From positions 248,001 through 312,000 of the forward strand of contig CP126207.1 of NCBI GenBank assembly GCA_030272155.1: a stretch of DNA of 64,000 nucleotides, written 5' to 3'. Below are positions 62 through 63,704 of the stretch, piece by piece. The DNA is from Tetradesmus obliquus. Its lineage: Eukaryota > Chlorophyta > Chlorophyceae > Sphaeropleales > Scenedesmaceae. Every line of letters starts with the position of its first letter. Positions within the stretch are counted from its first letter, which is position 1. The position numbers were made by a program, and so were the translations under genes. The notes beneath the pieces were generated by a model, which did no database searches, was not told the origin of the DNA, and saw only the letters and a list, made by a program, of their open reading frames with translations.

Positions 62-140
62 TTGACGAGGGTGATGTTGTGGATGAGGAGGACGGGGAGG
101 AGGAGGACGTGTCGGAGAAGAAGCCAGTCCAGGCACTAAG
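62..140 (+). repeat. Acceptor-side copy of HSP90 exon 192-298
   Basis: After an AG at 60-61 the sequence repeats the acidic linker start of the next exon (DEGDVVDEED, then GEEEDVSEKK). It then diverges into CTG repeats and a second AG at 190-191 in front of the full exon. Both copies are preceded by the same TGTTACATAACAG intron end. Only the 5' part of the exon is copied, with its splice acceptor. Confidence 0.7.
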
Positions 141-191
141 TACAACCTGTGTGCTGCTGCTGCTGCTGTCACATAACATGTTACATAACAG

Positions 192-3100
192 ATGATGAGG
201 GTGATGTGGTTGATGAGGAGGACGAGGAGGAGGAGGCGAAGAAGCCCAAGACGGTCAAGCAGAACGTGACCGAGTGGGAGCACCTCAACGACAACAAGGT
301 GTGTTACATCGCATGTTATAACACATCTTATAACACATGCTACGTTTGCAGCAGGGTCTGCCCCATGCTATGGTGGCGCAATGCCACGTAGGTGTTGGCG
401 GACCAGAGCAGTTGGCAACCGGTGCATCAATTACGTGTGTTGCTTGCAGACTTGTGACTTGAAACAAGCTGCTGCTTTTGCTGCTGAATCCTATATATAA
501 AAAGAATAAGGTGACCCCTTGGTGGGGACGTGCCAGGCAGCTGCAAGCCGCAGGCACCCCATCAATGTGTTGAAGTAAATTAGGAAAGGTGTTTGCGGAA
601 GCTTGAGGGCAAGTGGCTGCCCCTGTTCGGAGAAAAGGCCGCAGTAGACCCTTTCATGGGCTTTTGCTTGCAAATGGTGCGATGAAATCATGGTGCCTCA
701 CAGCTCAAACAGTTTGTTTTGCTTTGATCTAATTTCTCAGCGAGCTTCGGCTGCATCAGGGTCTGCGTGAGGATGTGGACAAAAGTGAGAACGTGCAAGT
801 GTGAGGGCGAGCAAAAGACGGACGGGGTTCCGAGAAGTTATTGATGTGATTAAGTATAAAAAAAATTAGCTTGAAGACGACCCTGATGCAGCTCCATCGG
901 CCAGAGACGGTCACCATCTGTTGCTGCTTTCGAATATATGTTACGCACAGTAGTATGCCCTTGGGGCCGTGGCATCATGCCACGGGGTTGTGCTAGTAAT
1001 GACATAACATAACAACAAAGTGTTTTATTCGATGCACCGCAGGCAATCTGGCTGCGCAAGGCCAAGGACATCAGTGAGGAGGAGTATAACAAGTTCTACA
1101 AGGCCGTCAGCAAGGTGGGGTTTAACAGGGCTTCAGGGTTTTGATCTATGCTGCCTGTAGGGTTTAGTGGGGGTTTGATTGCGCGTGCAGCACCAACAGG
1201 ATCAGCGTTCTTGTTCATGGTTCATGTTTGGCAGCTTGCTGCATCACACAGCTTTCAATCAAGCACAGCATGCACCGCCAATGCGCCAAAAACCTCACTG
1301 CCCTCCTGGAGCCTTGCCTCAACCCTTACTTACCTTCTAAACCCTGCCGTATCAAACCCTAAACCCTGCAGGACTACGATGATGCGCTGAACCGCATCCA
1401 CTTCAACGCCGAGGGTGATGTGGAGTTCAAGGCGCTGCTGTTCATCCCCAAGCGCGCCCCCTGGGACTTCTACGACAACATTCAGGTGTTTTTTAGCATG
1501 AAGATTGGGCTTGGGGTTTTGGGTTTGAACCGGCATTCAGTTGATATACCTCACGTGGTTTAGGGTCTCTGCAACTTGGGTTTCTGGTTTTGGGGTGACG
1601 TGGTGCTGCTGTTCATCCCCAAGCGCACCCCCTGGGACTTCTACGACAACATCCAGGTGTGGTTTAGCATGAGCGGTGGATGCAGGGTTTAGGGTTTCTG
1701 GTGCTGGTGTGTGTTTTGAAAAGACTTTGCATGGTTTAGGGTCCCAGCACTTGTTAGGTCAGGGATGACGTGGAGTTGAAAGGCGGTGCTGTTCATCCTC
1801 AGCAGAACAACCCTGTGCACACCCTTGAAATCCGTGATCTGCCAACTTCAGTTGAACCTGCAGCAAACATCTAAACATGTGCCTGTTGTCATGCTGTTTC
1901 AAATCCTTTGCAGCGCGCCAAGCCCAAGGCGACCCCCGGCGGCACCGCCAGTGCCGGCCTTCGCCCCTCTGCATAAGCCACACAAACCCCTCGTGCTTGC
2001 GAGTGCAAAACCCTAATTCTATGTTACTCTCTTGCTGCTGTGTAACCTTGCAGCGCGCCAAGCCCAAGGCTACCCCTGGCGGCACCGCCAGTGCCGGCAC
2101 TCCTGCTGCACTTCCCTCTCAACTGAATCCGATTATTTCAGCAAAACAACGCCAACATCACCTTATGGTTGCGTTTGACTTTGCAGCGCGCCAAGCCCAA
2201 GGCCACCCCAGGTGGCACCGCCAGTGCCGGGCTCAAGCTGTATGTGCGCCGCGTGTTCATCTCAGATGATGTGGATGAGCTTCTGCCCAGGTAGGGTTCA
2301 GGATTGCTCAGGGTAATCCCTGCTGTCTGCTGGGGTTTAGGCTGCTGGGAAGCGTCACTGGGGTTGGCAGAGCATTGCAGAAGCCCTATGCATGTCCAGC
2401 CGTTGTGCTGCTGATGTTTGCGGCAGACTGTTGACAACAGAGTTGTGTGCCACTGCTGTACACTCTCGTGTCTGGGATCCTTATGCCTGCAGCTACACCT
2501 TGCCCGGTCTTCGCTAACCCTGCCTGCTGCCTCTCGCCGTGAAAAACCCTGCAGGTACCTGTCGTTCCTGCGCGGTGTGGTGGACAGCGACAGCCTGACC
2601 CTCAACGTCAACAGGGAGATGCTGCAGGTGGGTATGATACTATTAACATGTTGTGTTATAACATTGTTATTGTATACAAATGACACAGCCCAGCTGTGTT
2701 GCACAGCATCCGATCACTGTGGCGTCCCTGACAGCCAGCCTTGCCTAGGACCATCAAACACGAACGAGCTTCTGTGCAGTGCGCTGCGCTGCAGCTACTG
2801 ATTTAACACAGCATTTGTAATCGTCTCTGATTTGCTGCTTTATTATCATAGTTGTGTTGTTTCCTGCAGCACCACGCCAGCCTGCGCACCATCAAGAAGA
2901 AGCTCGTGCACACACACACCCCGCTCAACTGTTTTGGTATGCTGTGCTGTGATGCTTCGTGTCTTTTGTGTTGTTTCCTGCAGCACCACGTCAGCCTGCG
3001 CACCATCAAGAAGAAGGTCGTGCGCAAGTTACTGCCGCTCCCTCAACCCTCAACCCTAGCTCAACACCGTGTTGCATTTGCTGCTTTTTTCGATTGTGCT

Positions 3101-4021
3101 TCCCCCTTGCAGCACCACGCCAGCCTCCGCACCATCAACAGGCTGCGCACAGGCACCTTACTCAACCTGTTGTGCTGTGCTGCACTGCTATGTTTCTTTG
3201 TTCGTTCTGCTTGTTTCGCTTGCAGCACCACGCCAGCCTGCGCACGATCAAGAAGAAGCTCGTGCGCAAGGCGCTGGATGCGATCAAGAAGATGGCGGAT
3301 GACGAGGCAGCATGCAACGCCGACGACAGCAGCGACGGTGAGAGTGCTGTAGGTGTTGTTTCAGGTGGCAACTGCCCAGAAATTGTTGGTCGTTGGTGTG
3401 ATGCCGGGAAAAGATGGCAAAGATGGCGGACGACGAGGCTGCATGCAACGCCGACGACAGCAGCGACGGTGAGACGCTTTGCGTGTGGGTTCAGGAGTTG
3501 TGTCAGGGGTGCACTCGGTGCCCCAAGGTTGTATTGGTTGTGCTGCTGCTGTGCTACTGCATGCCAGCAAGAAGATGGCGGACGACGAGGCTGCTTGCAA
3601 CGCTGACGACAGCAGCGACGGTGAGTGTGCTGCTGTGTACGGCGGCTGCTTTTTACACAAATCCTTTTGTGGTCGTGTATTAGAGAAGGTGGCGGATGAT
3701 GAGGCCGCGACAGCAGCGACGGTGAGACGCGTTGCATGTTGTGTTCAGGATAGTGCATTGAATGTCCCAAGGCTGTTTTGGTTGTGCTGCTGCTGTGCTA
3801 CTGCATGCAATTAGGAAGATGGCGGATGACGAGGCTGCATGCAACGCCGACGACAGCAGCGACGGTGAGTATGTTTGTCTGCAGCCGCTGTTGCTGCTGC
3901 TCTGTCTGTTGATGTCTGACTGCAGCTGCTTTGAGACGGCAAGCGCCGGATACACATGGGAAATGCAGGCTTTTGTTGCCTTTTGGATGGAGTTTTCAAC
4001 AAGCTGCTGCTTCTGCCTCTG

Positions 4022-4054
<33 letters not shown>

Positions 4055-4152
4055 TGTATAAAACCATCTAACCCTGCAGATGACAGGTCCGAGAAGCCCA
4101 CTGGTGATGTCTGCAAGGCCTTTGGCACTTTCTGGAAGGAGTTATCAAACAC

Positions 4153-4190
<38 letters not shown>

Positions 4191-7100
4191 CAAAATCAAA
4201 CAGATGCCGAGAAGCCCACCGGTGACGCCTGCAAGGCCTTTGGCACCTTCTGGAAGGAGTTTGGCCGCGCACTGAAGCTGGGAGTGCTGGAGGACGACAA
4301 CAACAGGTGCGGTTTAGCGGCTGCCCTGTCGCGATCTGTAACAGGTGCCGTTGCGCTGAACGCCAGCGCCTGACATGAGCTATTTTGCGTTAGCCTTGGG
4401 AGCAGGCCGCCAATGTTGTGCACCTGAGGGGGTGGTTCAACTGGCCGAAGCAGCGGACACTGCAAGCGGCCTACACTCGCTGTAAGGCGGTACCACCCTG
4501 AATCCTGCAGGGGCCGTCTGGCCAAGCTGCGCTTCTACACCTCCAAGTCCCCCAAGGAGCTCACCTCTCTGTCAGATGTTTGATACAAACTAAACCCTTG
4601 GATCACACAGCTGAACCGTGACAACCTGAACTCGTAACTGCATTAAACCCTGCAGGGGCCGGCTAGCCAAGCTGCTGCGCTTCTACACCTCCAAGTCTCC
4701 TAAGGAGCTCACTTCCCTTTCCGGCTATGTCAGCCGCATGAAGCCTGGCCAGAAGACAATCTACTGGATTGCGGGCATGAGCCAAGATGAGGTCGCACGC
4801 AGCCCTTTTGCTGAAAAGCTGGTTGCTGAGGTGGGTTTAAGGGGCCTCAGGAGGTTTAGTTTAAGTTCCAGGAGGCTTCCAGGTTTCAATTTGCCTCAGG
4901 GTTGTATGGGTTGGGGCGTGTCCCGCATGAAGCCGGCCAGAAGACCATCTACTGGATTGCGATCATGAGCCAGGATGAGGTGGCCCGCAATCCCTTTGCA
5001 GAGAAGTTGGTGGCTGAGGTGGGTTTTTGAGGCATTATGGTGCAGGGTTTAGGGTTCTGGAGAGTTGAAAGGGTAGAGGGTTTAGGCGTGTCCCGCAGGA
5101 AGCCTGGCCAGAAGACCATCTACTGGATTGCGGGCATGAGCCAAGACGAGGTGGCCCGCAGTCCCTTTGCTGAGAAGCTGGTTGCTGAGGTGGGTTTCTG
5201 GGGCATTATGGTGCAGGGTTTAGGGTGCAGCACATGCTCCAAGGTTTGAGGGTTTAGGCACGCAGTGCATAAAGCTGGGGCAGAAGACCATCTAGTGAAC
5301 CAGCAGGTGCTGCATCCACTGACGCTCCCCTGCTGCTGTCATTGCTGCTGTCATTGCTGCTGCTGTCATTGCTGCTGCTGCAAATGACGAATGACAAATA
5401 ACATGTCATTTTTCACAGGGCTACCGGGTGATGTACCTCACCGACCTGCTGGATGAGTACGTGATGCATCCGCTGACGCTCCCCTGCTACTGCTGCTGTT
5501 GCTGCATGACAACAATAACATGTCATTCTGTTACATATATGTTATTTTGCAGGGCTACGAGGTGATGTACCTCACCGACGTGCTGGATGAGTACGTGATG
5601 CAGCAGCTCACCGAGTTTGAAGATTTCAAGTTTGCCAACATCGCCAAGGAGGATGTGGACACCACAGCAGAGGCCGAGGGAGAGGTGCGTGCTTCGAACC
5701 CTGCTTGCTGCGTGTTCGCTGTTTGGCTTGTGCCTGCATGTTTTGGGGCCTCAAGTTTGCCAGCATATTAAGGAGGATGTGGACACCACAGCAGAGGCTG
5801 AGGGAGAGGTGCGTGCTTAAACCCTGCTTTTTTTAAAAAAAAGTTTGTTTGCTTTCTGACTTGTGCCTGCGTGTTTTGGGCATGAAGTTGGCTGACACTG
5901 CAGAAGAATGTGTGGGCGCTCACGTCGATGGAAAAAAAGACCTGGAAACCTTGCCCTTTGCAAATTGCTCTCTGAGCGGTGCCTGCTTGCACTGGCTGTA
6001 GCACCACATCACATCTGCCTCATCTGCTTGTGTCATGACCTCTATTTCTGTCCCGCGGAGCATGTGGGCATGACACCAGCGGCTCAGGCAGGCATGTACC
6101 CACTGATTACATCTGCATGTGGGCAACAGCTCGCATGCATTGAGCAAAGTACATGTGTGTCTTGCTTCCTTTTGACCCACGATCCATCTGCCTTATCCAC
6201 TTGTATTTGTCACCAACTCTACATGTGGAGCATGTGGACACGACACCAGTGGCTCAGGCAGGCACATGTGTGAAAGGACGAACTGTTAATGAACAGCACA
6301 GCAATGCACCTTCAAGCTTCCGCCAAGGCCAAGAAGGAGGCTGCCAACGCGCTGAAGGAGGCCATTGAAAACTGCTTCCCTGCCCAACCTGAAGCTACCT
6401 GCAAAACCCTGAACATACTGCAGGACAAGGAGGGTGCCGCCAAGGCCAAGAAGGAGGCAGCAAAGGCGCTGAAGGAGAGCTTCAAGCCCCTCACAGGCTG
6501 GTGGAAGGACCTGCTGGGCAGCAAGGTGCGTGACTTTTGTGTTATATTTGTGTGTCATGCATGTTAATTTGTTACACCTGGTCCCAGTCATGCATGAACA
6601 AGGCTGCCAAGGCGCTGAAGGAGTCCTTCACGCCCCTCACAATCTGGTGGAAGGACCTGCTGGGCAGCAAGGTGCGTTACTTTGATCATTTATTGTGTTA
6701 TTCACACGTTCACTGCGTGATTGAAGAGCAATACCCTGGTCAAAGGAAGAGTCTTTGTGCATTGAGTGGCAGGGGTGGCATTTGTTGATGATGATGCTGT
6801 CCTCAACATGAACATGAACCAGCTGATTCTCTGAAGCTGAGCATGCAGTAGTGCCCTCTGCGACTTCTACTGCTCAACCCTCTTTGCTGCTGCTGCTGTT
6901 GCTGCCCCTCAGGTCGCTGGCGTGAAGCCGAGCAAGCGCCTGTCGAGCACGCCTTGTGTAGCTGCATTTCTGCTGCAAGTGCGCATGCTAGGCCTCTGTT
7001 GCTGCTACCGCTGCTGCTGAATTTTGTTTCCACTCCTCGGGTCGCTGGCGTGAAGCTGAGCAAGCGCCTGTCATCCACCCCTTGTGTAGCTGCATGTCTG

Positions 7101-8706
7101 CTGCAAGTGCGCATGCTGATCCTCTGCTGCTGCCTCTGCTGCTGCTGCTGCCAACGCAGGTTGCTGGCGTGAAGCTGAGCAAGCGCCTGTCGAGCACCCC
7201 TTGTGTGGTGGTGGCCAGCAAGTGGGGGCAGTCCGCCAACATGGAGCGCATCATGAAGGCCTCGGTAAGCACAAATGACATGTTACGTAACTTGTAACAT
7301 GTTACTTCTTGTACGCAACTGGTTTTTGACAAGTGACGCCTTGTGTGGTGGTGGCCAGCAAGTGGGGGCAGTCAGCCAACTCGCAGCGCATCATGAAGGC
7401 CTCGGTGACCGACCATGACATGTTATATAACGTGTAACATGTTAGTTCTTGTACGCAACTGTTATTTGATTTGTGGCGCCCTGCGTGGTGGTGGCCAGCA
7501 AGTGGGGCCGGTCCGCCAACATGGAGCGCATCGTGAAGGCCTCGGGGAGTGCAAATGACATGTCATGTAGCATGTTAGTGATGTTATGTTACTGTCACTA
7601 ATTGCACCTTGGGTCCTTGTGTGGTGGTGGCCAGCAAGTGGGGCCAGTCTGCCAACATGGAGCGTATCATGAAGGCCTCGGTGAGTTTGAATAACTGATG
7701 TGTCATGTAACGCTGTTATGTAGCATAACAGCATATATTATGTACTTATGACACAACGTCACCCAACATGATCTGCACTTTTCTGCATGCCTGAGCCAGC
7801 CCATCTCAAGCAATTCTTCAGCTTGACACACAGCCACAAGTTTTACACTGCTGGGAACCCGCACCTCACACTGCATGCCTGCTGTTGCTGTGCTCCTGCT
7901 CCTGCTGCTGCTGCTGCTGCTGCCACAGGCCTTCAACGACCCCTCACGTGCCGCCATGATGCGTGGTCAGCGCACGCTGGAGATCAACCCCGACCACCCC
8001 TTGATTGCAGGGCTTAAGGACAAGGTGGGTGTAGGGTTTGTTTGATATTGTTTCATGGTGTTGCGGTTGTCTTGTACGCTGACCTTTGCGTGGTCTTCCG
8101 GGAAAGTTCTCTTGCTTGTGCATCGGGCTTGGATGTCTGTTTGTGGGCATGCATGCGTGGTCAGCGCACGGTCAGGATCAATTCCCACCACCCCCTCATT
8201 GCTAGCCTCAAGGACAAGGTGGGTGCAGGGTTTGTTCTGCAACAATGTAGTTGTCAATGCTGTGTTGTTTGAATGCATGTGACCAGTACAGGCTGGAGAT
8301 CACAACTCCTGAAGAGCTGTGGCTAGGACGTAATGCCGTGCATGCTGAGTCAGCAGCGGCCGCCGCCAACAGCAAGTTATCAACAACCTCCGGATGCCGC
8401 TGCCGCCTCTTCTGCCCTTCAATATAACATGTCATTTGCAAATGTAACAGGTTGTTGCTGACAAGGATGACACAACAGCCAAGGACACCGCAGCGCTGCT
8501 GTATGAGAACACCACCAGTAGCGAACCTCCTGCTGCTGTGGCTTACAAGCTGCCCCGCCGCTGCTGCTGCTCTGACCCTAAACCCTGCTTTTATAACAGG
8601 TTGTTGCTGACAAGAACGACACAACCGCCAAGGACACCGCAGCGCTGCTCTATGAGAACACCACCAGTAGCGAACCTCCTGCTGCTGTTGCTGACAAGCT
8701 GCGCCA

Positions 8707-8737
<31 letters not shown>

Positions 8738-9234
8738 GACCCTAAACCCTGCTGTTATAACAGGTTGTTGCTGACAAGGATGACACCACCGCCAAGGACA
8801 CCGCAGCGCTGCTGTATGAGACAGCCCTGCTGGAGAGCGGCTTCGAATCGGATGACCCCAAGGTGCGTGATTGTTATGTTATTTTGTTACACTGTTGTGA
8901 GAGGAACAATGTATTAATGGCTTCTTTTGACAACCGCATGCTTTGTCTGGTTTGGTTGCAATGTGCGTCCCCCTGACCTCTTGTGTGTTTGCGCTAATGC
9001 ACGCACAGCTTGTTGCTTGCAATATATTATTTACACCTGTTGTAACATTGTCACAACTGTTGTCACTTTCTGCAGGGCTTCACGCAGCGGATGTACGAGC
9101 TCATCAAGGGCCAGCTGGGAGTGACTGCTGAGCTGCCCGGCAGCAGCAGCAGCAGCAGCAAGGGTGAAGACACGGCAGCAGCAGCAGAGGATGAAACTGC
9201 GGAGGATGCAGATAGTGACAAGTTGGAGCTCTGA
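192..9234 (+). CDS. HSP90B: ER-resident HSP90 chaperone (GRP94/endoplasmin), 5' end off window
   Basis: ATP-dependent chaperone of the ER lumen that folds secretory clients. Exons with GT-AG borders and matching phase: 192-298, 1043-1114, 1372-1485, 2187-2290, 2555-2627, 3226-3337, 4204-4306, 4656-4830, 5553-5684, 6424-6525, 7160-7264, 7929-8024, 8764-8862, 9076-9234. Together they give 516 residues. The N-terminal ATPase domain lies to the left of the window. Family blocks in order: acidic linker (DDEGDVVDEEDEEEE), TEWEHLND, IWLRKAKDISEEEYNKFYK, LKLYVRRVFISDDVDELLP, GVVDSDSLTLNVNREMLQ, TFWKEFG analogue, VVVASKWGQSANMERIMKA, EINPDHPLI, LLYETALLESGF. The tail ends DKLEL, a KDEL-like retrieval signal, which with the endoplasmin-type linker points to the ER form rather than cytosolic (MEEVD) HSP90. 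Two inserts (about RAKPKATPGGTASAG, and a segment around EAACNADDSSD) are unusual. Most introns are filled with copies of adjacent exon ends. Confidence 0.93.
1605..2100 (+). repeat. Partial exon copies in HSP90 intron 1486-2186
   Basis: Two donor-side copies of exon 1372-1485 come first: 1605-1656 (LLFIPKRTPWDFYDNIQ followed by GTGTGG) and a worn one at about 1763-1804. Two acceptor-side copies of the next exon follow, at 1914-1959 and 2054-2100. Each has the CAG acceptor and encodes RAKPKATPGGTASAG. The full exon starts at 2187. The order is donor copies first, then acceptor copies. Confidence 0.8.
2870..3864 (+). repeat. Acceptor- and donor-side copies around HSP90 exon 3226-3337
   Basis: Upstream of the full exon, acceptor-side copies start at 2870, 2984 and 3113, each CAG followed by HHASLRTI. 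Downstream, donor-side copies of its 3' half (KMADDEAACNADDSSD then GGTGAG) lie at about 3413-3467, 3568-3618, 3687-3720 and 3813-3864. The 3687 copy has an internal deletion. Seven partial copies therefore flank one exon. Confidence 0.85.
3960..4572 (+). repeat. Acceptor-side copies of HSP90 exons 4204-4306 and 4656-4830
   Basis: A copy after CAG at 4078-4080 encodes SEKPTGDVCKAFGTFWKEL and runs into a CTG tract; a worn relic may lie near 3965-4000. The full exon starts at 4204. At about 4512-4572 a copy of the 5' part of the next exon (GRLAKL.RFYTSKSPKEL) follows CTGCAG and lacks one codon relative to the full exon at 4656. Confidence 0.75.
4918..5294 (+). repeat. Donor-side copies of HSP90 exon 4656-4830
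   Basis: Two 171-bp-spaced copies, 4918-5019 and 5088-5189, repeat the last third of the exon (KPGQKTIYWIAGMSQDEVAR to KLVAE) with the same GTGGGTTT donor and the following ATTATGGTGCAGGGTTTAGG intron segment. The first copy carries a frame-breaking deletion. A third fragment lies at about 5255-5294. Confidence 0.85.
5420..6672 (+). repeat. Partial exon copies around HSP90 exons 5553-5684 and 6424-6525
   Basis: 5420-5485 is an acceptor-side copy (GYRVMYLTDLLDEYVM). 5768-5808 is a donor-side copy (KEDVDTTAEAEGE then GTGCGT). 6318-6360 is an acceptor-side copy of the next exon (AKAKKEAANALKEA), and 6601-6672 a donor-side copy (KAAKALKESF to GSK then GTGCGT). A pair of related segments near 6060-6100 and 6230-6270 (both with GGCTCAGGCAGGCA) shows a further intronic duplication. 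Confidence 0.78.
6913..7680 (+). repeat. Copies around HSP90 exon 7160-7264
   Basis: Acceptor-side copies at 6913-6955 and 7040-7085 encode VAGVKPSKRLSSTPC-like starts. After the full exon, three donor-side copies at about 7337-7405, 7477-7545 and 7615-7680 repeat CVVVASKWGxSANxxRIxKAS. The intron segments between them share TGACATGT(T/C)A and TAACATGTTA motifs. The donor-side copies all remain open in this frame. Confidence 0.85.
8150..8690 (+). repeat. Copies of HSP90 exons 7929-8024 (3' end) and 8764-8862 (5' end)
   Basis: 8150-8218 is a donor-side copy (RGQRTVRINSHHPLIASLKDK, then GTGGGT), with a short relic near 8290-8315. 8453-8520 and about 8600-8690 are acceptor-side copies of VVADKDDTTAKDTAALLYE. 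Both switch to an unrelated reading after the shared part. Confidence 0.8.
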
Positions 9235-9700
9235 GGCAGCAGCAGCTGGTGATTCTGAGGCGGCAGCAGCAGCAGCAAGGGTGATGACAAGGCAGCAGCA
9301 GCAGATGCTGAGGAGGCTGCGGAGGATGCAGCAGCTGAGGAAAGTTACAAGTCGGAGCTCTAAGGCAGCAGCAGCAGCATCTGGTGATTCTGAGGCGGTA
9401 GCAGCAGCAGCAAGGGCGATGACACGGCAGCAGCGGATGTTGAGGAGGCTGCGGAGGATGCAGCAGCTGAGGTCAGCGACAAGTCGGAGCTGTGAGGCAG
9501 CAGCAGCATTTGAGTTGGTGCCAGGGAACGCAGCAGCAGCGGCGGCAGCTGAGGACACTGACAAGTCGGAGCTCTGAAGCAGCGGCGGCTGCTGCCGCGA
9601 CACCGCAGCAGTTGATTCTGCAGCAAGGTATCCACAAGCAGCAGCAGCAAATGCTAAGGAGAGTTTTGCGTCGGAGCTCTGGCGCAGCAGCAGCAACTGC
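9235..9700 (+). repeat. Tandem copies of the HSP90 C-terminal tail and stop codon
   Basis: The last-exon end (Ser run, Lys-Gly-Asp/Glu-Asp, Ala/Glu-rich stretch, KLEL stop) is repeated after the true stop at 9232-9234. Copies end YKSEL-stop (near 9363), DKSEL-stop (near 9496) and DKSEL-stop (near 9577), with a worn fourth near 9660-9680. They are in the 3' UTR if the first stop is used. This is the terminal-exon version of the donor-side copies. Confidence 0.8.
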
Positions 9701-47616: not shown

Positions 47617-47654
<38 letters not shown>

Positions 47655-49455
47655 CCGCCAACCCCTGCCGCTGCTACTGAGCCAACACACGCCAACCCAG
47701 TTGGCAGCAGCAGCAGCAGCAGGCCGCAAAGCCTTGCAGGAAACCCCTTAGGCCCCACCCCTGCAGCAGCAGCAGCAGCAGATGTCAGCAGGCCAATGAG
47801 CCTTGCAGGACAGATCTCAGCTCCCGTCCCTGCAGCAGCAGCAGCAGCAGCAGCAGATGTCAGCAGGCCGATGAGCCCTGCAGGAAACCTGCTGGGTGCA
47901 GTGCTGCACTCAATAGAAGCCGAGCTGCAGAAAGAGATCGAGCAGTTTGCAGGAGCGCTGGTGCGGCAGCATAAGGAGAAGCTGCTCAGGAGTATAGAGG
48001 CGCTGCAGGGTGCAGCAGCAACACCTGCCCCTGCTGCTGCTGCTGCTGCTGCTCGAGCCGGTGGATCGGATGCCACAACGCTGCTTAGGAGCACAGAGGC
48101 CTTGCAAGGCGCAGCAGCAACAACAGCAGCACCGCAGGATGCTGCAGCAGCAGCAGTTGCTGCTGCACCTGCTGCGCAAGCTGCTGCTGCTGCTGCCCCG
48201 ATTCAAAGCACGCAAGGGCCAGCAGCGTTTGTCTGTGCTGCCTGCAACCACACCAGCAGTGACAGAGGCAGCAGCGCTGCAGGTGTGCTATGCAACCGCT
48301 GCACTGCGCAGCAGCAACAGCAACCATACGGCGCGCCTGGCATGGCGGCTCACACAGCACCACCAGCAGCAGCAGCAGCAGCAGCTGGCCACCCTCAGCA
48401 GCAGCAGCAGCTGCTGCAGATAGATCAGATGCAGCGACAGGCCAGCACGCCAAGCAGCATGTCAGGCAGCGGCTTGCATCGAGGCTCAACGCCGCCGCCA
48501 GTGCAGCAGCAGCAGCAGATAGATCAGATCAGATCAGATCAGATCATTGAGATGACTCAGCGTCAGCAGTCGACGGCGCTCAGTGCTGTCGGCAGCAACC
48601 CTGTCGAGCCACAGCAGCAGCAGCAGCAGCAGCACATAGCCACAAACAACTACCAGCAGCAGCAGCAGCAGCAGCAGCAAGCTCTGCCCCAAGAGCCGCT
48701 GCCACCTTGGCATCAGCAGCAGCAGCAATCCTGGCGTGAGCAGCAGCAGCAGCAGTCCTGGCCCCAGCAGCAGCAGCAGCAGCCACCTTGGCAGCAGGAG
48801 CAGCAGCAGCTGCTGCCTGCACATGCTGCTGCTGTAGCGCCGCGGGCATCCCATATGAACAGCATAGATCCTGTGCCGCCGGCTAGCCTGCAGCAGCAGC
48901 AGCAGCAGCAGCAGGGCGTGTACAGCATCCCTGCTTGCCCCTCACCCTGCAGCATGGATATCTGCTACCCCACCCAGCAGCAGCAGCAGCAGCAGCAGCA
49001 GGCAAACCCACCGCAGCTGCCTTCGCCAGCAGCAGCAGTAGGTTGTGCTGTCACAGGCTCCCCTCCAGGTGCAGCAGCAGCAGACTGCAGCAGTCAGCAA
49101 CAGCAGCAGCAGCAGCCCAACAACAGCAGCTGGGTCTCTGCTGCTAGCCCCTTTGCTGCTGCAAGCACTCCGGGCAGTGCAGTTGACCAAGCCACTCCTC
49201 CAGCTGCCTACAGCCCACCCGAGCAGCAGCAGCAGCAGCAGCAGCAGCAGTGTGGTACGCTGCATGTGCCGCCCAGCAGCAGCCCACCCGAGCAGCAGCA
49301 ACAGCAGCACCACCACCAGCAGCAGCAGCAGCAGTGTGGTACGCTGCACGTGCCGCCGAGCAGCAGCACCCATGCAGCAGCAGCGGCAGCAGCAGCGGCA
49401 GCGGCGGCGCCTACAAGCAGCAGCAGGGGCTGTGGCGTGTCAGCAGGCCGATACC

Positions 49456-49486
<31 letters not shown>

Positions 49487-50341
49487 CTACTCGAGCCCTC
49501 ATGTGACAGATCTAGTGGCTGGTGCATTCGGCGGCTCTCCTTGCTGCACCCCAACCAGTGATCTTTTTGAGGGTTTAGATGCGTTACTTGAAGAGCACAT
49601 GGGCTCTGATCTAGATGTGTCATGCTTAATGAGCCCGCGGCAGCAGCAGCAGCAGCGGCAGAAGCTAGGCGCGGGCGACAGCCCGTCAAGTGCAGCAGCA
49701 GCGGCAGCAGCATTTGGGTCCGCATGCTGCGCAGCCGCCGTCACATGGCCAGCAGCAGCAGCAGCAGCGGCGGCGCCGCAAACCCTAAACCCTGGCGGGG
49801 GTTCTGCTGGCACCCGCAGCACCAGCACAGACAAAAGCAGCAGCGCAGAATTCAGCGCATGCAGCGGCAGAGCAGCAGCAGCAGCAGGCCGCAAGCCCAG
49901 CAGCGGCCGCGGCAGGAGCCGCCGGCCGGCTGCTGCTGCTGCTGCCGCCGCCATTGCTGCTGCTGCTGCTGCCATCCTGCCTGAACCTGCTGCTGCTGCT
50001 GCTGGCATGCTGAAAAAGCAGAAGCGCACACCGAAAGATGCATCAGGGCTCGCCAGATCCTTTTCGGTGCAGGCAGCTGCTACTGCAGCAGGGGTCAACA
50101 ACGATCATGAGGAGCCAGCAGCAGCAGTAGCAGCGGCAGCAGCAGCAGCAAGAGGTCCCAGAGCTGCATCCTGCCCTGCTTCTGAGAGTGAGTTGATGCA
50201 GAGTGTGCAGTGGCGCCAGCAGCAGCAGCAGCAGCAGCAGCAGGGCCAGGGGCAACCAATGCAGTGGCAGGCTGCTCAACCCCAGCAGCACCAGCAGCAG
50301 CAGCAGCAGCATGGCCAGGGGCAGCAGTGGCACCAACCTGC

Positions 50342-50373
<32 letters not shown>

Positions 50374-50452
50374 TGCCACAGAGTGCAGCACCATTGCTGC
50401 AGCACCAGCCACCCCTGCAGCAGCAGCAGCAGCAGCAGGCATGTGCTTGGCC

Positions 50453-50486
<34 letters not shown>

Positions 50487-51077
50487 TCATCTTGGCACCA
50501 GCAGCAGCAACCGTGGCAGAGCGGTCCACCTAGCCTACAACAACAGGGCACAGCAGCAGGAGCAGCAGCACCGCAGCCGGTGCAGCAGCAGCAGCAGCAG
50601 CAGCAGGGGTTGCAGGTAATCCACCAGATGCCTCAGCAGCAGCAGCAGCAGCAGCAGCCAGTGCCACACTGGCAGCAACAGCAGCAGCAGCAGCAGGGGC
50701 CACCACCGGTGCAGCAGCAACAGACGTACCAGCAGCTGCAGCAGCAACAGCAGCAGGGGCCACCCCCCGTGCAGCAGCAGCAGCAACAGACCTGCGAGCA
50801 GCCGCCACAGCAGCAGTCCTGGCAGCAGCCCCAGCAGCCACAGCAGCAGCAGCAGCAGCAGCCTGTGCCGATTGCGCAGCAGCCTGCAACGCTGCAGCAC
50901 CGCAACTGGCCCCAGCCGCAGCAAGAGCAGCAGCAGCTGCAGCCAATGCAGCAACAACAGAGCTGGCAGCAGCAGCAGCAGCAGCAGCCGCCGCAGCAGC
51001 AGCAGCGTAGTGCTGGAGTGTCTTCGATGCCGCCATGGCTGCAGCAGCATCTATGCCGCAGTGGCAAGCGGCTGTAG
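47121..51077 (+). CDS. Gln/Ala-rich protein with GATA-like Cys4 motif, unknown function
   Basis: A single open frame of 1318 codons; an in-frame TGA lies directly before ATG 47121. It is dominated by CAG-coded Gln runs, with Ala runs (GCA) and Ser/Pro linkers. Non-repetitive islands argue that it is translated. A predicted amphipathic helix lies near residues 267-296 (SIEAELQKEIEQFAGALVRQ). A Cys-x2-Cys-x15-Cys-x2-Cys motif lies at residues 371-393 (CAAC to LCNRC), resembling a shortened GATA zinc finger. An acidic patch follows near 810 (DLFEGLDALLEEHMGSDLDV), a basic Lys/Arg cluster near 965, and the end is MPPWLQQHLCRSGKRL. The composition suggests a transcription regulator or condensate-type protein; that is inference. 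No intron is needed, in contrast with its neighbours. Confidence 0.65.
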
Positions 51078-56712: not shown

Positions 56713-58107
56713 CCGCAGACACATGCCTGAGTTTGCTGATGCGTCATTTGACACTGTCATTGACAAAGGCACTTTGGATGCGATCCGCTGCGGGCCCACG
56801 GCTGATGAGGACAGCGCAGCCATGATGCTGGAGCTGTACAGGTGTGTTAGTAACATGTTACTTTTACAGAACATGTAACATGTTACAAGGGTGTCATATT
56901 TGACACGGCAAGTTGTCACTGGCATGGGCGTTCGTGATGCCATACGTTGCGGGCTGATAGCTGAAAAAGACAGTGCGGCAAAGGGTGCTGGAGCTGTACA
57001 TATGTATGGATGACATGTTGCAGGGTTTTGCGGCCCGGGGGCGTCGTGATGATATTACCGACGGGCCTCATTTCAGATTCATGCCTCATCCTGCTGCTGC
57101 TGCTGCTGCTGCGTTGGTGGGGTTTTGCGCACACGCTGTCGCAGGGTTTTGCGGCCCGGGGGCATCATGATGATGATCACCTACGGGCCTCACTTCAGAT
57201 ACATGCCTCATCCTGCTGCTGCTGCTGCTGCTGCGTTGTTGGGGTTTTGCGCACACGCTGTCGCAGGGTTTTGCGGCCCGGGCGCATCATGATGATGATC
57301 ACCTACGGGCCTCACTTCAGATACATGCCTCATCCTGCTGCTGCTGCTGCTGCTGCGTTGTTGGGGTTTTGCGCAAACGCTGTTGCAGGGTTTTGCGGCC
57401 CGGTGGCGTCATGATGATGATCACCTACGGGCCTCCTTTTGTGCGGCTGCCCTGGATGCTGCTGCCGGGCATGGACTGGGACCTCCAGGTGGGTGCACTC
57501 TGTCAATTTCTGTGTGTGATTTCATGCGCAAATGCAGGGATGATGTTGATAGTTTGGACCCGAGCATAGCCAAGAATGATGCTTGTTGATGGTTTTGTTG
57601 CATGCAACTTGCCTGTGTGCTAACAGCTGTGTGGAGGTGTGATCACCTACGGGCCGCCATTTGTGCGGCTGCCCTGGATGCTGCTGCCGGGCATGGACTG
57701 GGACCTCCAGGTGGGGACTTTGTATTGATTCCTTTTCGTTTCTGCAACATTATAGATTGAAGCTGCTACGCATATTTAAGAGCTTCAGCAGCCTGCCTGG
57801 GCCTGCAAAGAGCGCTCTTTGTTTCAAGGACAACATGTTGGTATTGCAGCTACTGTGTTGGCAGCTGCCCTGCTGCCGGGCATGGACTGGGATTTCCAGG
57901 TGGGTGCATTTCTTGTCACTTTCTGTGTTATTTAGTGTGCAAATGCAGGGATGCTGTTGGTTTGTGGACCCGAGCACGGCCAAGAATGACGCAGCATCAA
58001 GTCTGATGGTTTTGTTGCATGGGATTGCCTGTGTTAACAGTACTGTAGTTTGTCAGCTGTGTGGAGGTGTGATCACCTGCGGGCCTCGCTTGGTGCGGCC
58101 GCCCTGG

Positions 58108-58142
<35 letters not shown>

Positions 58143-59793
58143 CATGGACCGGGACATCCAGGTGAGTGCACCCTGCTGCTCCTACTGCTGTTGTGGTGTT
58201 TATATTGTGCTTCCTGATCCTACAATGCTGCTTATGGTGTTGTCTTGTGCCGGGGTACGCTGTAGCTGCTGTGTGCGGCTGCCCTGGATGCTGCTGCCCG
58301 GCATGCACTGGGACATTCAGGCGCGGTCCTCTCCTGAATCCTTTCTGCAAATGTCAGCAGCAACATATCAGGTTGAAGCTGCTATGTACACAGCAGCCTG
58401 CCTGGGCCTGCAAAGAGCGCTCTTTGTTTCAAGGAGAACATGTTGGTATTGCAGCTACTGTGTTTGCAGCTGCCCTGCTGCCAGGCATGGACTGGGACCT
58501 CCAGGTGGGATACTCCCGTTGATTATAGAAAGTTATAGTCTTGTCTGTTCTTATACCACAGGTTATACCACAGGCAGCTGCTGCTGCTGCTGCTGTGCAG
58601 GTGTACACGCTGGGTGATGCTGATGGGGAGCCCAGCCTGTCACAATTCCCAAAACTGACCCTGCTGCTGCTGCTGCTGGTGCTGATGATGCTGCATCGTA
58701 AGACGGTTTACCTGCGAATTTACGTCATTGTTGTTTCTCTGTACTGCTGTGCAGGTGTACATGCTGGGCAACGTTGATGGGGAGCCCAGCCTTGGCCACT
58801 TCCCAACACTGACGCCAGGCATCCGGGGACCCATAGCAGCCCAGGACCTGGTGAGGCAACTTAACTGACGCTGACTTAACTTAACTGACGCTGACGCTGG
58901 TTAACACTGCAGCTCGTAATACTACGTGAAAGCTCTTGCGGAACAATGCAGCTGAGCTGCCGCCACTAGAATTTTATTTTTCTTCGTCCAGGCTGACGTG
59001 CTTATTCCAACACCAACATGTATAAGCACTATTAATCCGTTTGATGACTTGAGTCAACACAAAACACCATGACTGCAAAGTACAAGAGCTGCACTACGAT
59101 TTCTTCTCTACAGCTTTCTGGTTGCTGTCAACAGCTCTGTGCTGCTGCCGTGGACTTGTGGACTGCTTTTCACTACTTCGTACTGCTTTGTACTGCTTTG
59201 TACTGCTGCTGTTGTGTACTGCCCTGCAGGCACCCCCACCGGATGTGCAGGACTGCAACAAGCTGCACTTTGCATTTGTATTTGTTTTTTACTACTGATT
59301 TGTGATGCCTGTTTATATGCATTTATTGTGCTGCTGTTGTGGACTGTGTTACTGCCATGCAGGCAACCCCACCAGATGTGCAAGACTTGAACAAACTGCA
59401 CTTTGTGTACTGCTTTCTGATGCTTGTTTTGTACTGCTTTGTACTTGTACTGCTGCTGCTATGTATTGCCCTGAGGCACCACCTCCGGATGTGCAGGACT
59501 GGAACAAGCTGCACTTTGTGTATGTTCTGTACTGCTTTTTGATGCTTGTTTTGTACTGCTTTGTACTGCTGCTTCTGTGTATCGCCCTGCAGGCACCCCC
59601 ACCGGATGTGCAGGACTGGAACAAGCTGCATCCTGTTTTTGTTTTTTTGCACTGCTCTGTGATGCTTGTTTTGTACTGCTTCATACTGCTGATGCTGTTG
59701 TGTACTGCCCTGCAGGCACCCCCACCGGATGTGCAGGACTGGAACAAGCTGCATTTTGTGTATGTGGCAACAAAGGCAGCAGCTGCACAGTAG
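55755..59793 (+). CDS. SAM-dependent methyltransferase, EEF1AKMT4/METTL13 group
   Basis: Class I methyltransferase; relatives methylate lysine on translation elongation factor 1A. Exons in phase: 55755-55898, 56269-56426, 56719-56841, 57389-57488, 58755-58850, 59716-59793 (699 nt, 232 residues plus stop). A short 5' exon is missing. Landmarks: ASYWDRRYEEE with FEWYQSYDSL (family start), motif I VLQVGVGTSEL, acidic residue in NTDIS, FDTVIDKGTLDAI (the DKGTLD signature), RVLRPGGVMMMITYG, and a final strand (NKLHFVYVATK). The length suits the compact single-domain members. The substrate is inferred from the family only. Introns are full of partial exon copies. Confidence 0.85.
56000..56560 (+). 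repeat. Partial copies around methyltransferase exons 1 and 2
   Basis: 56003-56081 is a donor-side copy (FEWYQSYDSLQQILEKHLG) with a stop. 56140-56215 is an acceptor-side copy of the next exon (LQAELTSRS, FVNT). 56505-56560 is a donor-side copy (AGWLQLTCQLAEAKE). Confidence 0.82.
56930..57002 (+). repeat. Donor-side relic of methyltransferase exon 56719-56841
   Basis: Degraded copy of DAIRCGPTADEDSAAMMLEL (here AIRCGLIAEKDSAA), including the end of the exon. Confidence 0.7.
57020..57385 (+). repeat. Three acceptor-side copies of methyltransferase exon 57389-57488, 122-bp period
   Basis: Starting near 57024, 57146 and 57268, each unit holds GCAGGGTTTTGCGGCCCGG, GGGCCTCA(C/T)TTCAGAT, and a CTG run leading to the next GCAG. 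The second and third units are nearly identical, so amplification is recent. Each is cut off after ITYGPHFRYMP-like sequence. Confidence 0.93.
57634..58510 (+). repeat. Donor-side copies of methyltransferase exon 57389-57488
   Basis: RLPWMLLPGMDWDLQ followed by GTGGG recurs with full or partial length at about 57634-57711, 57868-57900, 58069-58163, 58275-58325 and 58468-58506. One copy contains an inserted CTG run ([15 protein letters not shown]). A larger 600-bp segment (AGCCTGCCTGGGCCTGCAAA) is itself repeated at 57790 and 58392. Confidence 0.9.
58601..58670 (+). repeat. Acceptor-side copy of methyltransferase exon 58755-58850
   Basis: After GTGCAG, VYTLGDADGEPSLSQFPKLT repeats the first 20 codons of the next exon, then enters a CTG run. 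Confidence 0.88.
59230..59640 (+). repeat. Four acceptor-side copies of the last methyltransferase exon
   Basis: Starting near 59230, 59363, 59476 and 59593, after CAG or GAG, each reads A(P/T)PPDVQDxNKLHF. The intron segment TGCTTGTTTTGTACTGCTTTG is repeated between them. The full exon is at 59716. Confidence 0.92.
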
Positions 59794-60297: not shown

Positions 60298-62182
60298 CAG
60301 CAGCAGCAGCAGCTGTTGTGGCTGCCCAGACACAACCAGTGCACCTGCAGACTTTCAATTAAACTGGTGTCATGCTTTTGCTTGATTGACATTGTGACGT
60401 CTGGAAGCTGCATCTGTCAGATGAATGGGCCCAGCAGCTGGAGCAGCTAGTGCACTGCAACACAAGCAGCTCCTTTTGCAACATCACAACCTGACTGTTT
60501 GATCTCGGGTTGTTTGTTGGTGTGCCAGCAGCTGAAGCAGGTCATGCGCTGCAGCATGCGCCGCTGCTTATATAGCGTGTATGCTGCATACTTTACTCTG
60601 GACAGCTTTTGTACCAGCAGCCGCTGCCACGTCAGCAAACCGTATCTTTCACTCCACTTCAACTAGATACGTTATCGGGTTGCCGAGAGGCTGCAGCTCA
60701 TTCTGTAACACTTGCCGCATTCCTTATGAGGCCCGACCTGCACAGCAACTCAAGATGCGCCAGCAATGGGCCAGCAGCTCAAGCGGCTGGTGCGCTGCAA
60801 TCCGTGCACCTGCTTCAACAGCGCCTATGTACAATCAGCCAAACTGTGGTGTCGGCAGATCAATTGGTTGCGCGATGAGCCTGTCATTGGCTGGCAAAAC
60901 CAAACAAAGCTGTAGGCCCTGCCAGGAGTTGCGTGAGGTGACACTCAAAGATGAATGGAGAACTGCTTTGGGGCCGTGCATTGACTGCTCATCCAGCTGT
61001 ATGCAGCACTGCAATGGTATTGCTATATGATACAGCGAGCATCGATCGCGGGTGTGGCTGGAAACGGCTGCCAGGTTGATGCGACCAGAGCAGCGCACCA
61101 GCCTCTGGTTGAACTGCATTCAGTAGCTATTACTAGACAGCACAACGCAGTTGATGACAGCAGCTTGAAGAAGGCAGATTGTTGATTACCCTGCTCTATC
61201 ATCACATGCTGCTGTGCTGGCTGGCGACTGCTGCAAGTACGATTGAGGCGGACTAAGCAGCACACCAGATGTGCATCAATCAGCAGCCATTGCATCACAA
61301 AGTCAAAAGAGACATTGTGTATGAAGGACTGCAGGAAGCCCAGCCATCAGACATTGATGTGTCTGTTGGATGCTGCTTTGGAGCTGTGTGGGGCTGCCTG
61401 CAATGCAGTTTGGAGGTGGACAAAGCAGCACACCAATACTGCATCCAGCAGCTGCTAGATACCTCGTACATAAAGTCAGAGAGAAGAGATTGATGGAGGC
61501 AGATTGTTAGTTACCCTGCTCTACTACAAATGCTGCTGCCGGCCAGGTCATGTGTCTCAATGCATACCAGCCACAGCAGCAGCACGCCACTTGCAAATCA
61601 TTTGAAGCAGTCGGAAACCTTTTTCATCACAAAAAGAATTGGGAATTGGGGGCGGCAGCAGCCGGGCGTATTTTGCAACGCGGGGCTGAGAGCACACCAG
61701 AACTGACACACACACCACAAGTAGGGCTGACCCCATATTTTTCGCTCGCAGCAGCACTTTCAGGGCGTGTCTTTCAACGCCGCTGCTGCTGGTGGATAGC
61801 AGTGCTCAAGCAAGCAACCATCAAAAGGATCTGGCACATCTTGCAATGCCAGCGGTGCTGCGTGAAACACCACACTCTGCAGCATGCGCTAACCTAGCTG
61901 GGAAGACAGACATGCATCATCTCACTGAAAACAGACAAGCCTGTGGAGACAAGCTACTTTGGAGTGTCTTAACTACTGCTCTGAACCAAGCCAAAGCCAG
62001 CAGTAGATATACCAAAGCAGCCGCCACACAACACACGGAGGAACCAAAATAATACAGCGCAGTGCATGTCAACGCAGCAGCAGCAGCAGCCAGATCCAAG
62101 GACCTAGAGGAAGCCCTTAGAACCTAACCCACACACCGCTCGCTGCGACAGCAGCAGCTTGTTGCATACCAAATCAAGACAT
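60061..62182. other. Region without a recognised gene
   Basis: CAG runs lie near 60265-60310. Two related segments of about 260-300 bp (each with GGCAGATTGTT(G/A)(A/G)TTACCCTG, near 61175 and 61498) mark another tandem duplication. TGTAA near 60706 could serve the methyltransferase. Nothing else supported. Confidence 0.4.
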
Positions 62183-63704
62183 TTACGCCTTAATCTGAGC
62201 TGCCACGCTGCTGGCCTTGCTCTCTGGGTTAATTGCCTTGGCCATAGTATCCTGGACCTTCTTGCCGGCAGACACCGCAAATCCACCAGAAATCGCCTGA
62301 GCCGGGCCCACGGCAATGCGGCTGGAGCCGCCGTTGCTGGTGCGGGAAATCAGGCCGACGGAGATCGCGTTTGCGAGCGCGTTTCCGGGGTTCTTGTCGG
62401 AGTCGGCGGCAGAACGGGCAAGGGAGTCGGCCACCACGCCGGTTGCGACGGCGTTGGCAACGGAGTCGGAGATGCAGTCAATGCAGCCGGTGCCGGAGCT
62501 TGAGGTGGCGGCGGCCTCGCCGTGGAACACGCCGATGGCGCCGGCCTGGGCGTTGGAGGTGACGTCACCTGCAGGTGGGGTTTAGGATGGCGGGGGGCAG
62601 GGTTTTAGGAGCAGGGTTGGGGTTTAGGATTTGTGGATTTTTGCCGAGTATGCAAGCTGAATGTGCATGCTGGCTAGCAGCTGAGTTCACACAAGCAGCT
62701 GGCGCAGTAACAAAGTAACACTCAGAAGTAACAGACGTAACACATGTCACGTACCTAGCAGCTGAGTTCAGAGGCAACGGGCAGGGCACCAGCCAGCAGG
62801 CACAAACAGTAACCAACTAACACTGTCAAGTAACAGCAAAGTAACACTCACCGGTCTCGGAGGCGCCGGAAGAGGTAGCAGATGCCACGGAGTTCACGGC
62901 AGCAGCAGACAGGGCATCGGCCAGCAGGCACTAAAAACTAACAAACTAACACTGTCAGATAACATCAAAGTAACACTCACCGGTCTCGGAGGCGCCGGAA
63001 GAGGTGGCGGAGGCAATGGAGTTCACGGCAGCAGCGGACAGAGCGCCGGCCAGGGACTGTGCGCGGCCATCCTTGGTCTCAGCGGATGAAGCCACCTTGG
63101 ATTGGGCCTGAATCAGACCAGTGGACACACCGATCGCCATGGATCCGGCAGATCCGGCCTCAGTTCCGGAAGATGAAGCGACAGTGGCCTTGCCCTGGAG
63201 CACACCCAGGCCGTAGCCCTGAGCGGCGGAGGCGGCGTTACCGGTGGTGGTAGCGGCGGAGGAGGCGGTATCGGCTGTAGCGTCACCAGACAGAGCACCC
63301 GACCATGATCCAGACAGAGCTTGGCCCTCCTTGGATGCGGCTGCTGATGTGGACACAGCACGGGTGGTGAAGGCGGATCCGGAGAATGCAAGGCCGGCGG
63401 AGGCGGCATTTCCGGTGGAGGTGGTTGCGGATGATGCTCCCTGAGAGTCGGAGTGGACTCCGCCGACGGACTGAGATGCGGCGATAGCGGCGGCCTGACC
63501 GGTGGTGGTGGTGGCGTCGGAGGAGGTGGTGGCGGAGTTCTGGGTTGAGACGGCGGCGTTTCCGATGTTGTAGGCGAGCGCGGAGCCGGTGGTGGTCTTT
63601 GCAGTGGCGGAGTTGGCGATCACGGAGCGCTGGCTGGCCTGGGCGACACCGACGTTTCCGGCGATGGCCTGGTACTCTGATGTACGGGAGTTGACGTCTA
63701 TACC
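62183..63704 (-). CDS. Ala/Ser/Thr/Gly-rich repeat protein, 5' end uncertain
   Basis: No family recognised. Two exons in phase: 63704-62981 and 62568-62183 (stop TAA), 369 codons. More 5' sequence lies upstream, probably past the window edge; exon 63704 starts after CCGCAG with GIDVNSRTSEYQAIAGNVGV. The protein is built of diverged units of about 25-30 residues with a core like SSATTxTGNAASAxxxxxxG. It ends in a Lys-containing tail (GKKVQDTMAKAINPESKASS). The small-residue alternation suggests a beta-helix or an extended fibrous fold, as in secreted adhesive or cell-wall proteins; this is inference. One CIDC pair is present in exon 2. Codon use is GC-rich and the frame is unbroken, so expression is likely. 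Confidence 0.65.
62752..62935 (-). repeat. Donor-side copies of the repeat-protein exon 63704-62981
   Basis: Minus strand: 62935-62850 repeats ADALSAAAVNSVASATSSG and ASETG with GTGAGTGTTAC donor, nearly identical to the full exon. About 62810-62752 is a worn further copy. Confidence 0.85.

Follow-up and report, generated by a model that had tools for sequence, protein, structure and literature searches.

Why do introns of the green alga Tetradesmus obliquus carry partial copies of the adjoining exons, and why does each copy lie on a predictable side of its exon? The question is raised by a window of 64,000 bases (bases 248001–312000 of contig C17, which has 3,054,181 bases, in an assembly of 104.66 Mb and 17 contigs) that contains, among other genes, an HSP90/GRP94 gene and a PEPCK gene. 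A sequence-only reading of the window had described half-exon copies in nearly every split gene, those upstream of an exon containing its acceptor and 5′ part and those downstream its 3′ part and donor or stop codon. We found that such copies are real and unusually abundant in this window, and that tolerance of tandem duplications straddling one splice site, together with their longer persistence, is the likely cause.

Half-exon copies in HSP90 and PEPCK

The splice sites of both genes were set by spliced alignment of public proteins to the window. HSP90/GRP94 has 14 exons inside the window, on the plus strand and up to position 9231 (protein P0001), with the start of the first exon placed by hand at 192; the matching protein, OEZ85_013471, was taken as coming from another T. 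obliquus assembly. PEPCK comprises 16 exons on the minus strand (43199–30283; protein P0121 from the same assembly, labeled OEZ86_007107, Tetradesmus obliquus, in the protein search).

Self-BLAST of the window (E ≤ 1e-8) returned 137 direct pairs and no inverted pair. Offsets were below 300 bp for 87 pairs, 300–1000 bp for 45, and larger for 5, with 2 of the 137 more than 3 kb apart. When pairs within 2.5 kb were collected from all 26 sequences, the window and 25 sampled loci described below (E ≤ 1e-4), 448 were direct and 26 inverted. Because identity of the window pairs is mostly 70–98% and direct pairs prevail to this extent, chance is excluded.

At least one partial copy accompanies 30 of the 55 splice sites of HSP90 and PEPCK. 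A first count (E ≤ 0.01) gave 53 splice-site copies, with acceptor copies upstream in 26 of 28 cases and donor copies downstream in 25 of 25; the dinucleotide AG was retained in 27 of the 28 and GT in 22 of the 25. The two exceptions both trace to one acceptor, that of a doubtful 12-bp PEPCK microexon, which was left out of the counts thereafter. A second count (E ≤ 1e-3, shorter flank) placed 27 of 27 acceptor copies and 25 of 25 donor copies, and hence 52 of 52, on the expected side, which confirms half-exon copies as they had been described. Each of the two genes holds more than twenty straddling duplications, and none of their 29 exons, the doubtful microexon aside, has a whole-exon copy. 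The paralogs PEPCK2 and PEPCK3 contribute 5 copies and 1 copy, respectively, with 6 of 6 on the expected side.

The orientation and side of the copies follow from geometry. Of the copies of a unit that spans an acceptor, only the last continues into the remainder of the exon, and of those of a unit that spans a donor, only the first has that remainder in front of it. The side rule is therefore the necessary geometry of tandem duplication across one splice site with the outer exon intact, and the “one rule” of the sequence-only reading loses its standing as a separate regularity. Neither the abundance of the copies nor the excess of straddling over intron-only arrays is forced by geometry.

For comparison, 25 loci of 10 kb (250 kb) were taken from the assembly outside the window, 20 of them at fixed coordinates across all 17 contigs and 5 at random coordinates. 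These loci and the other window genes carry rough ab initio models from a hidden Markov model gene finder trained in this analysis, which are poor in Ala/Gln-rich stretches. In its first, unmasked pass, the finder called many copies as in-frame exons; for retraining, predicted exons copying a longer neighbor were masked, which presumes that the longest copy is the functional one. The sample models thus depend partly on the hypothesis, whereas the protein-supported genes are independent of it. In the sample, for exons scoring at least 4 and at least 25 bp long, copies accompany 80 of 469 predicted sites, and of these 124 copies, 109 lie on the expected side. The other window genes have copies at 20 of 102 sites. 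Copies are more frequent in HSP90 and PEPCK than in the genome as a whole. No tandem pair occurs in 4 of the 25 sampled loci, so that “nearly every split gene” does not extend to the genome. With 73 of 88 counted window copies on the expected side, the count comes near the earlier tally of more than 70; that there was no clear violation is confirmed for HSP90 and PEPCK but not for the other window genes (21 of 36 copies).

Arrays in the window

The arrays are listed below by window coordinates, strand, and content.

22–236, plus: HSP90, acceptor-side copy of exon 192–298, 130 bp upstream
1431–1672, plus: HSP90, donor-side copy of exon 1372–1485
1906–2233, plus: HSP90, two acceptor-side copies of exon 2187–2290, all codon differences synonymous in both
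2852–3270, plus: HSP90, three acceptor-side copies of exon 3226–3337
3274–3873, plus: HSP90, donor-side array of exon 3226–3337, three copies mapped, 131–384 bp downstream
4019–4261, plus: HSP90, acceptor-side copy of exon 4204–4306
4501–4721, plus: HSP90, acceptor-side copy of exon 4656–4830
4734–5297, plus: HSP90, two donor-side copies of exon 4656–4830
5403–5611, plus: HSP90, acceptor-side copy of exon 5553–5684
5626–5892, plus: HSP90, donor-side copy of exon 5553–5684
6447–6683, plus: HSP90, donor-side copy of exon 6424–6525
6886–7206, plus: HSP90, two acceptor-side copies of exon 7160–7264
7196–7721, plus: HSP90, donor-side array of exon 7160–7264, two copies mapped
7955–8236, plus: HSP90, donor-side copy of exon 7929–8024
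8445–8821, plus: HSP90, acceptor-side array of exon 8764–8862, three exon pieces and two spacers (~2.5 copies)
9143–9508, plus: HSP90, last coding part with stop codon, copies downstream of the stop
30045–30475, minus: PEPCK, last coding part copied beyond the stop codon
30467–31065, minus: PEPCK, acceptor-side array of exon 30283–30597
31097–31497, minus: PEPCK, donor-side copy of exon 31425–31555
31513–31814, minus: PEPCK, two acceptor-side copies of exon 31425–31555
32078–32381, minus: PEPCK, donor-side copy of exon 32300–32446
32349–32809, minus: PEPCK, young acceptor-side array of exon 32300–32446, 154-bp unit, three full units, 97–98% identical
32885–33203, minus: PEPCK, donor-side copy of exon 33082–33278, 121 bp of exon aligned, 0 nonsynonymous changes, one frameshifting gap
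33170–33925, minus: PEPCK, three acceptor-side copies of exon 33082–33278
34837–35955, minus: PEPCK, intron-only array in a 3-kb intron, 84-bp unit, ~7 nearly identical copies, no splice site straddled
36645–37536, minus: PEPCK, six donor-side copies of exon 37477–37554
37774–38046, minus: PEPCK, donor-side copy of exon 37987–38087
38051–38195, minus: PEPCK, acceptor-side copy of exon 37987–38087
38408–39041, minus: PEPCK, donor-side array of exon 38977–39086, one site copy mapped
39035–39531, minus: PEPCK, three acceptor-side copies of exon 38977–39086
39783–40281, minus: PEPCK, two acceptor-side copies of exon 39689–39838, the outer one being the 12-bp microexon of the public model (40168–40179)
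40744–41125, minus: PEPCK, two donor-side copies of exon 41060–41153
22859–23541, minus: TTC12-like gene (name from the sequence-only reading), array repeating a 62-bp exon, two copies of which enter the public model in different frames
57016–58509, plus: “methyltransferase” gene (name likewise from that reading), array with 121-bp unit, classed as mixed on ab initio models only

Placement and age of the arrays

The arrays have no fixed unit length, their units measuring roughly 80–250 bp. The 35 arrays of HSP90 and PEPCK comprise 14 acceptor, 12 donor, 1 mixed, 4 exon-internal, and 4 intron-only arrays, with no whole-exon array. Straddling arrays thus make up 27 of the 31 that are either straddling or intron-only, as compared with a share of 0.20 expected at random placement in the current introns. 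The corresponding figures for the sample, after 20 arrays in low-complexity, intergenic, or gene-edge places had been set aside, are 49 of 62 and 0.25. If the introns of HSP90 and PEPCK are capped at 150, 200, 250, 300, or 460 bp, the expected share becomes 0.71, 0.59, 0.51, 0.45, or 0.33; for the sample, it is 0.66 at 150 bp and 0.49 at 250 bp. The introns of PEPCK3 at positions matched to PEPCK measure 158–522 bp, and geometry alone therefore seems insufficient for the straddling excess. Several of the arrays counted as intron-only look by eye like missed exons (e.g. L016:3505–3837, given as sampled locus and position).

The straddling share among full-unit arrays (arrays up to 900 bp long) drops with youth, from 14 of 18 at ≥85% identity to 5 of 8 at ≥90% and 2 of 5 at ≥95%, although one of the three intron-only arrays in the last class (L016:3505) looks like a missed exon and the numbers are small. 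Because the youngest arrays show no straddling excess, longer persistence is a likelier cause than targeted mutation, which suggests that straddling arrays are not born more often. Tandem arrays with offsets below 400 bp span 44,428 of the 250,000 sampled bases; according to the available part of PMC12571836, repeats make up 18.8% of a T. obliquus genome.

Internal structure of the arrays

The 137-bp units of the array L020:2627–2959 are 100% identical and follow the order exon piece, spacer, exon piece, spacer, functional exon, so that the first piece has no upstream spacer. The same exon-piece-first layout is found at window 8445–8821 and L017:8808–9177, and the donor array L017:7480–7805 is its mirror image. 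Several well-preserved arrays (86–100% identical, ~2.4–2.6 copies) likewise start or finish at an exon piece, whereas window 32349–32809 consists of three full units. The exon-piece-first layout is what one would expect if exon pieces of an older array had undergone unequal exchange.

Spacer homology was evaluated for periods of 45–300 bp and copies less than 700 bp away, from which 42 of 164 cases with a short spacer or exon part were then dropped. Pairs of exon and nearest copy in multi-copy arrays share a homologous spacer in 28 of 36 cases, as compared with 7 of 17 for outermost pairs. Among single-copy pairs, the spacer is homologous in 26 of 59, and the other 33 show no detectable homology, maybe owing to divergence. 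The ends of HSP90 and PEPCK provide two cases of arrays at a stop codon that obey the same logic, and the splice site itself is therefore not special.

Codon pattern of the copies

Copies were compared with the functional exon where at least 20 bases aligned, starting near the site and at most 800 bp away. In 51 copies from HSP90 and PEPCK, first, second, and third codon positions differ 46, 33, and 160 times (rates 0.044, 0.032, and 0.154), and codon changes comprise 144 synonymous, 67 nonsynonymous, and 0 stop changes (expected 25, 72, and 3%). The rates are 0.055, 0.048, and 0.213 in the 13 of 51 pairs whose spacer aligns no better than shuffled sequence. A copy neutral from birth changes at all positions equally and the exon adds at most as many changes at third positions, which sets a ceiling of 0.5 for the third-position share. 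This share is 0.669 in HSP90 and PEPCK (bootstrap over sites 0.591–0.743), or 0.63 (0.547–0.721) if only the nearest copy is used. The sample has an overall share of 0.55 (0.49–0.62), with 0.383 for young spacers (15 copies), 0.638 (0.544–0.739) for older alignable spacers (27 copies), and 0.525 for weakly aligned ones (33 copies). The excess is thus clear in two conserved genes and one sample class, not throughout.

Indels in the copies shift the frame in 10 of 11 cases in HSP90 and PEPCK and in 38 of 44 among the sample copies, as untranslated DNA would lead one to expect; the sample copies also contain 6 stop-codon changes. In the PEPCK copy at 32885–33203, two serine codons are swapped between the TCN and AGY families with amino acids unchanged, in the presence of a frameshifting gap. 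Our reading is that most of this divergence built up when both lineages were still functional and that the untranslated phase came later and was shorter.

Two candidate causes of the third-position excess were rejected. Hot mutation at third positions does not suffice as the sole cause, as first and second positions change at 0.029–0.075 whatever the base or CpG context and the excess is missing from the 15 young sample copies. Gene conversion confined to a single genome cannot, by reasoning, exceed the 50% ceiling.

Origin of the arrays

These observations are probably best explained by frequent local tandem duplication that is tolerated across one splice site, with arrays re-expanded through the shared exon piece. 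The T. obliquus genome would gain many short local tandem duplications with units of roughly 80–250 bp. A duplication over exactly one splice site or stop codon would leave one complete exon, on the outside of the array. The old mRNA could still be made from the last of the acceptors, or from the first of the donors or stop codons, so that the duplication could survive and the extra half-exon become intron. Exon pieces would stay alike longer than spacers and could serve as handles for unequal exchange or slippage, which would add copies in the form of k exon pieces and k − 1 spacers. Straddling arrays would thereby stay detectable, whereas intron-only repeats would decay.

Several observations weigh against this explanation. 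Geometry predicts more intron-only arrays than were found, even with introns capped. The depletion expected of a selective sieve is not seen, as exon-internal arrays are not reduced in number (sample, 23 of 98 versus 18.9% at random; HSP90 and PEPCK, 4 of 35 versus 5.1%), and neither are whole-exon arrays in the sample (11 of 98 versus 7.6%); for HSP90 and PEPCK, the numbers of the latter (0 of 35 versus 1.8%) are too small to judge. Among the exon-class arrays are some straddlers in which <8 intron bases align, and the ab initio models blur the remainder. As neither class is depleted, the removal of harmful duplications would follow from gene logic, not from the counts. The side rule is broken by 15 of 124 copies in the sample, 8 of which fall within the predicted exon itself by our reading of the coordinates, and by 15 of 36 in the other window genes, all on ab initio models. 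Finally, the third-position share in HSP90 and PEPCK exceeds the ceiling for copies neutral since birth. The interpretation given in the sequence-only reading is supported in part; neutrality alone leaves the straddling excess and the third-position excess in conserved genes unexplained.

We infer that exchange with diverged haplotypes lies behind the third-position excess. Unequal exchange between haplotypes of a diploid or hybrid alga, in which copy and exon stem from two functional alleles, is compatible with tolerated duplication and, as an explanation of the arrays, a serious possibility that falls short of being probable. It would account for a share above the single-genome ceiling, for the changes unique to the functional exon in multi-copy arrays (2:0:21 by codon position), and for the joint climb of fourfold-site and spacer divergence (0.153/0.163, 0.237/0.215, and 0.301/0.257). 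PEPCK2 differs at 5 of 652 residues between two public T. obliquus assemblies, and the available part of PMC7955037 reports a related Scenedesmus strain as likely diploid with separated alleles and names a UTEX 3031 “haplotype,” both in keeping with such exchange. However, near-identical young arrays exist, changes unique to one copy are less skewed (15:10:27), and haplotype exchange alone does not predict that the 9 youngest pairs in HSP90 and PEPCK differ by 0.056 in spacers and 0.112 at third positions.

Tentatively, and with rather more doubt, the exon piece may be a recombination handle and the half-exon copies a recycled pool that enters and leaves the working position, both within and between diverged haplotypes. 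If so, introns would serve as a reserve of synonymous, protein-neutral versions of their own exons, the copies would come under selection at each recycling, and the arrays would be self-sustaining and make introns grow. Should the codon-position excess hold up across the genome, it would demonstrate exchange between exons and intronic copies.

Mutation coupled to splicing, for example through transcription, RNA–DNA hybrids, or exon nucleosomes, might instead set breakpoints at exon–intron junctions. Straddling arrays lie above the geometric expectation even with 150-bp introns, and the unit lengths are of nucleosome order. We nevertheless consider this unlikely, as the straddling excess is missing from the youngest full-unit arrays (small numbers, as given above), the two stop-codon ends carry the same arrays, and unit length is not fixed; moreover, several of 13 inspected arrays look re-expanded, which implies fewer independent births than arrays.

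It is more improbable still that the copies are constrained by a coding role, such as that of alternative exons, with the protein kept while silent sites drift. The prevalence of synonymous changes and absence of stops in the 51 copies, the low first- and second-position rates even where spacers align no better than shuffled, the retention of AG or GT in 49 of 53 copies, and the in-frame exons called in the first pass of the gene finder would fit such use. Yet the indels mostly shift the frame, stop changes occur in the sample, young sample copies lack the third-position excess, and each copy bears only one splice site of its exon. The copies are also absent from three public proteins, apart from two likely errors of annotation.

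Dispersed local templated insertions, introner-like elements, or assembly error could be invoked for the 33 single-copy pairs without detectable spacer homology but are highly improbable, because insertions would not respect side and orientation as 52 of 52 copies do, a search of the whole genome with an HSP90 exon piece, in which only the best candidates were scored, found it in two places, both in its own array, and most copies differ from their exon by several percent, contrary to assembly doubling.

Effects on introns and annotation

Tolerated duplication offers a simple, testable route to intron lengthening, in that a tandem duplication crossing a splice site hides in the intron. Indeed, about half of the intron bases of the two genes are repeat-aligned (HSP90, 3627 of 7490, 48%; PEPCK, 6203 of 11135, 56%), which upholds the earlier claim that one-splice-site duplications are abundant and lengthen introns. 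Eight introns of PEPCK and PEPCK3 were matched by hand via exon lengths, one PEPCK3 intron being measured across a 4-bp alignment artefact; they total 8176 bp in PEPCK and 2535 bp in PEPCK3, and 8 of 8 are longer in PEPCK. The first five introns of PEPCK (window 41154–43184, 84–726 bp) have no detectable copies, unlike the nine later ones. The available part of PMC5966456 gives a mean intron length of 462 bp, as compared with 230–302 bp in four other green algae. Extrapolated from the sample, the genome should offer natural experiments in the thousands on how the spliceosome chooses between duplicated splice sites.

Half-exon copies can mislead gene annotation. The public PEPCK model P0121 contains an LRFK repeat encoded by the 12-bp microexon (40168–40179, minus strand), which copies the beginning of the following exon; the homolog P0122, transcript-derived to judge by its label, lacks it. 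The microexon is probably an annotation artefact or a rare real inclusion. The public TTC12-like model P0241 uses one 62-bp exon twice (22866–22927 and 23299–23360, minus strand; 56 of 62 positions identical) in different frames.

Residue differences between HSP90 of the window and that of the other T. obliquus assembly lie in 1372–1485 and 2555–2627 (for example, T in place of P in DSLPLNVNREMLQ and N in place of K in HFKAEGDVEF), at sites that are uniform or nearly so in four other fetched homologs. A long Ala/Gln-rich reading frame in CAG repeats at window 47125–51010, with nine predicted exons, is without half-exon arrays. Across all loci, CTGCTG occurs near the acceptors of 37 of 122 introns and in mid-intron in 9 of 122. 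Telomere-like motifs at intron ends were too few to carry weight (GGGTTT in the first 25 bases, 10 of 122; AAACCC in the last 25, 5 of 122). Kilobase arrays at L018:1–6042 and L023:1–4439, with 274–351-bp units that are 91–95% identical, were classed as intergenic and are satellite-like.

Comparison with known systems

No description of this system was found among the matches listed in open-licence PubMed Central, and the available parts of PMC12571836, PMC7590803, PMC5552973, and PMC7955037 do not mention intronic exon copies. The nearest likeness is intron gain, in which tandem duplication of a coding segment creates a new intron inside an exon from a duplicated AG/GY motif (available part of PMC2891723; also the topic of PMC4974935 as far as available). 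In both systems, a short tandem duplication arises in a gene and splicing restores the old message, but here the duplications cross the splice site of an intron that already exists and make it longer, and each of two genes shows this more than 20 times. Intron gain would place the start of the next exon first and the end of the previous exon last; here, donor-side copies carry the 3′ end of the preceding exon (25 of 25) and acceptor-side copies the 5′ end of the next exon (27 of 27).

Duplications across exon–intron boundaries are known in human genetics as single events, and a dedicated description was not found among the matches listed. They likewise cross one splice site and leave the outer exon usable, whereas here there are many per gene. 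Tandem duplication of mutually exclusive exons also places exon-derived sequence in introns, but as complete exons with both sites; here, a copy consists of part of an exon with a single splice site, and HSP90 and PEPCK, the doubtful microexon aside, have no complete copy, although 11 of 98 arrays in the sample are whole-exon on ab initio models. Introner-like elements, which are near-identical introns dispersed among genes, make a similarly large contribution to intron sequence, but each copy described here derives from the neighboring exon, and 2 of the 137 window pairs are separated by more than 3 kb. Minisatellites form direct tandem arrays, probably with unequal exchange; the arrays of T. 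obliquus differ in that their unit includes coding sequence and a splice site, at low copy number.

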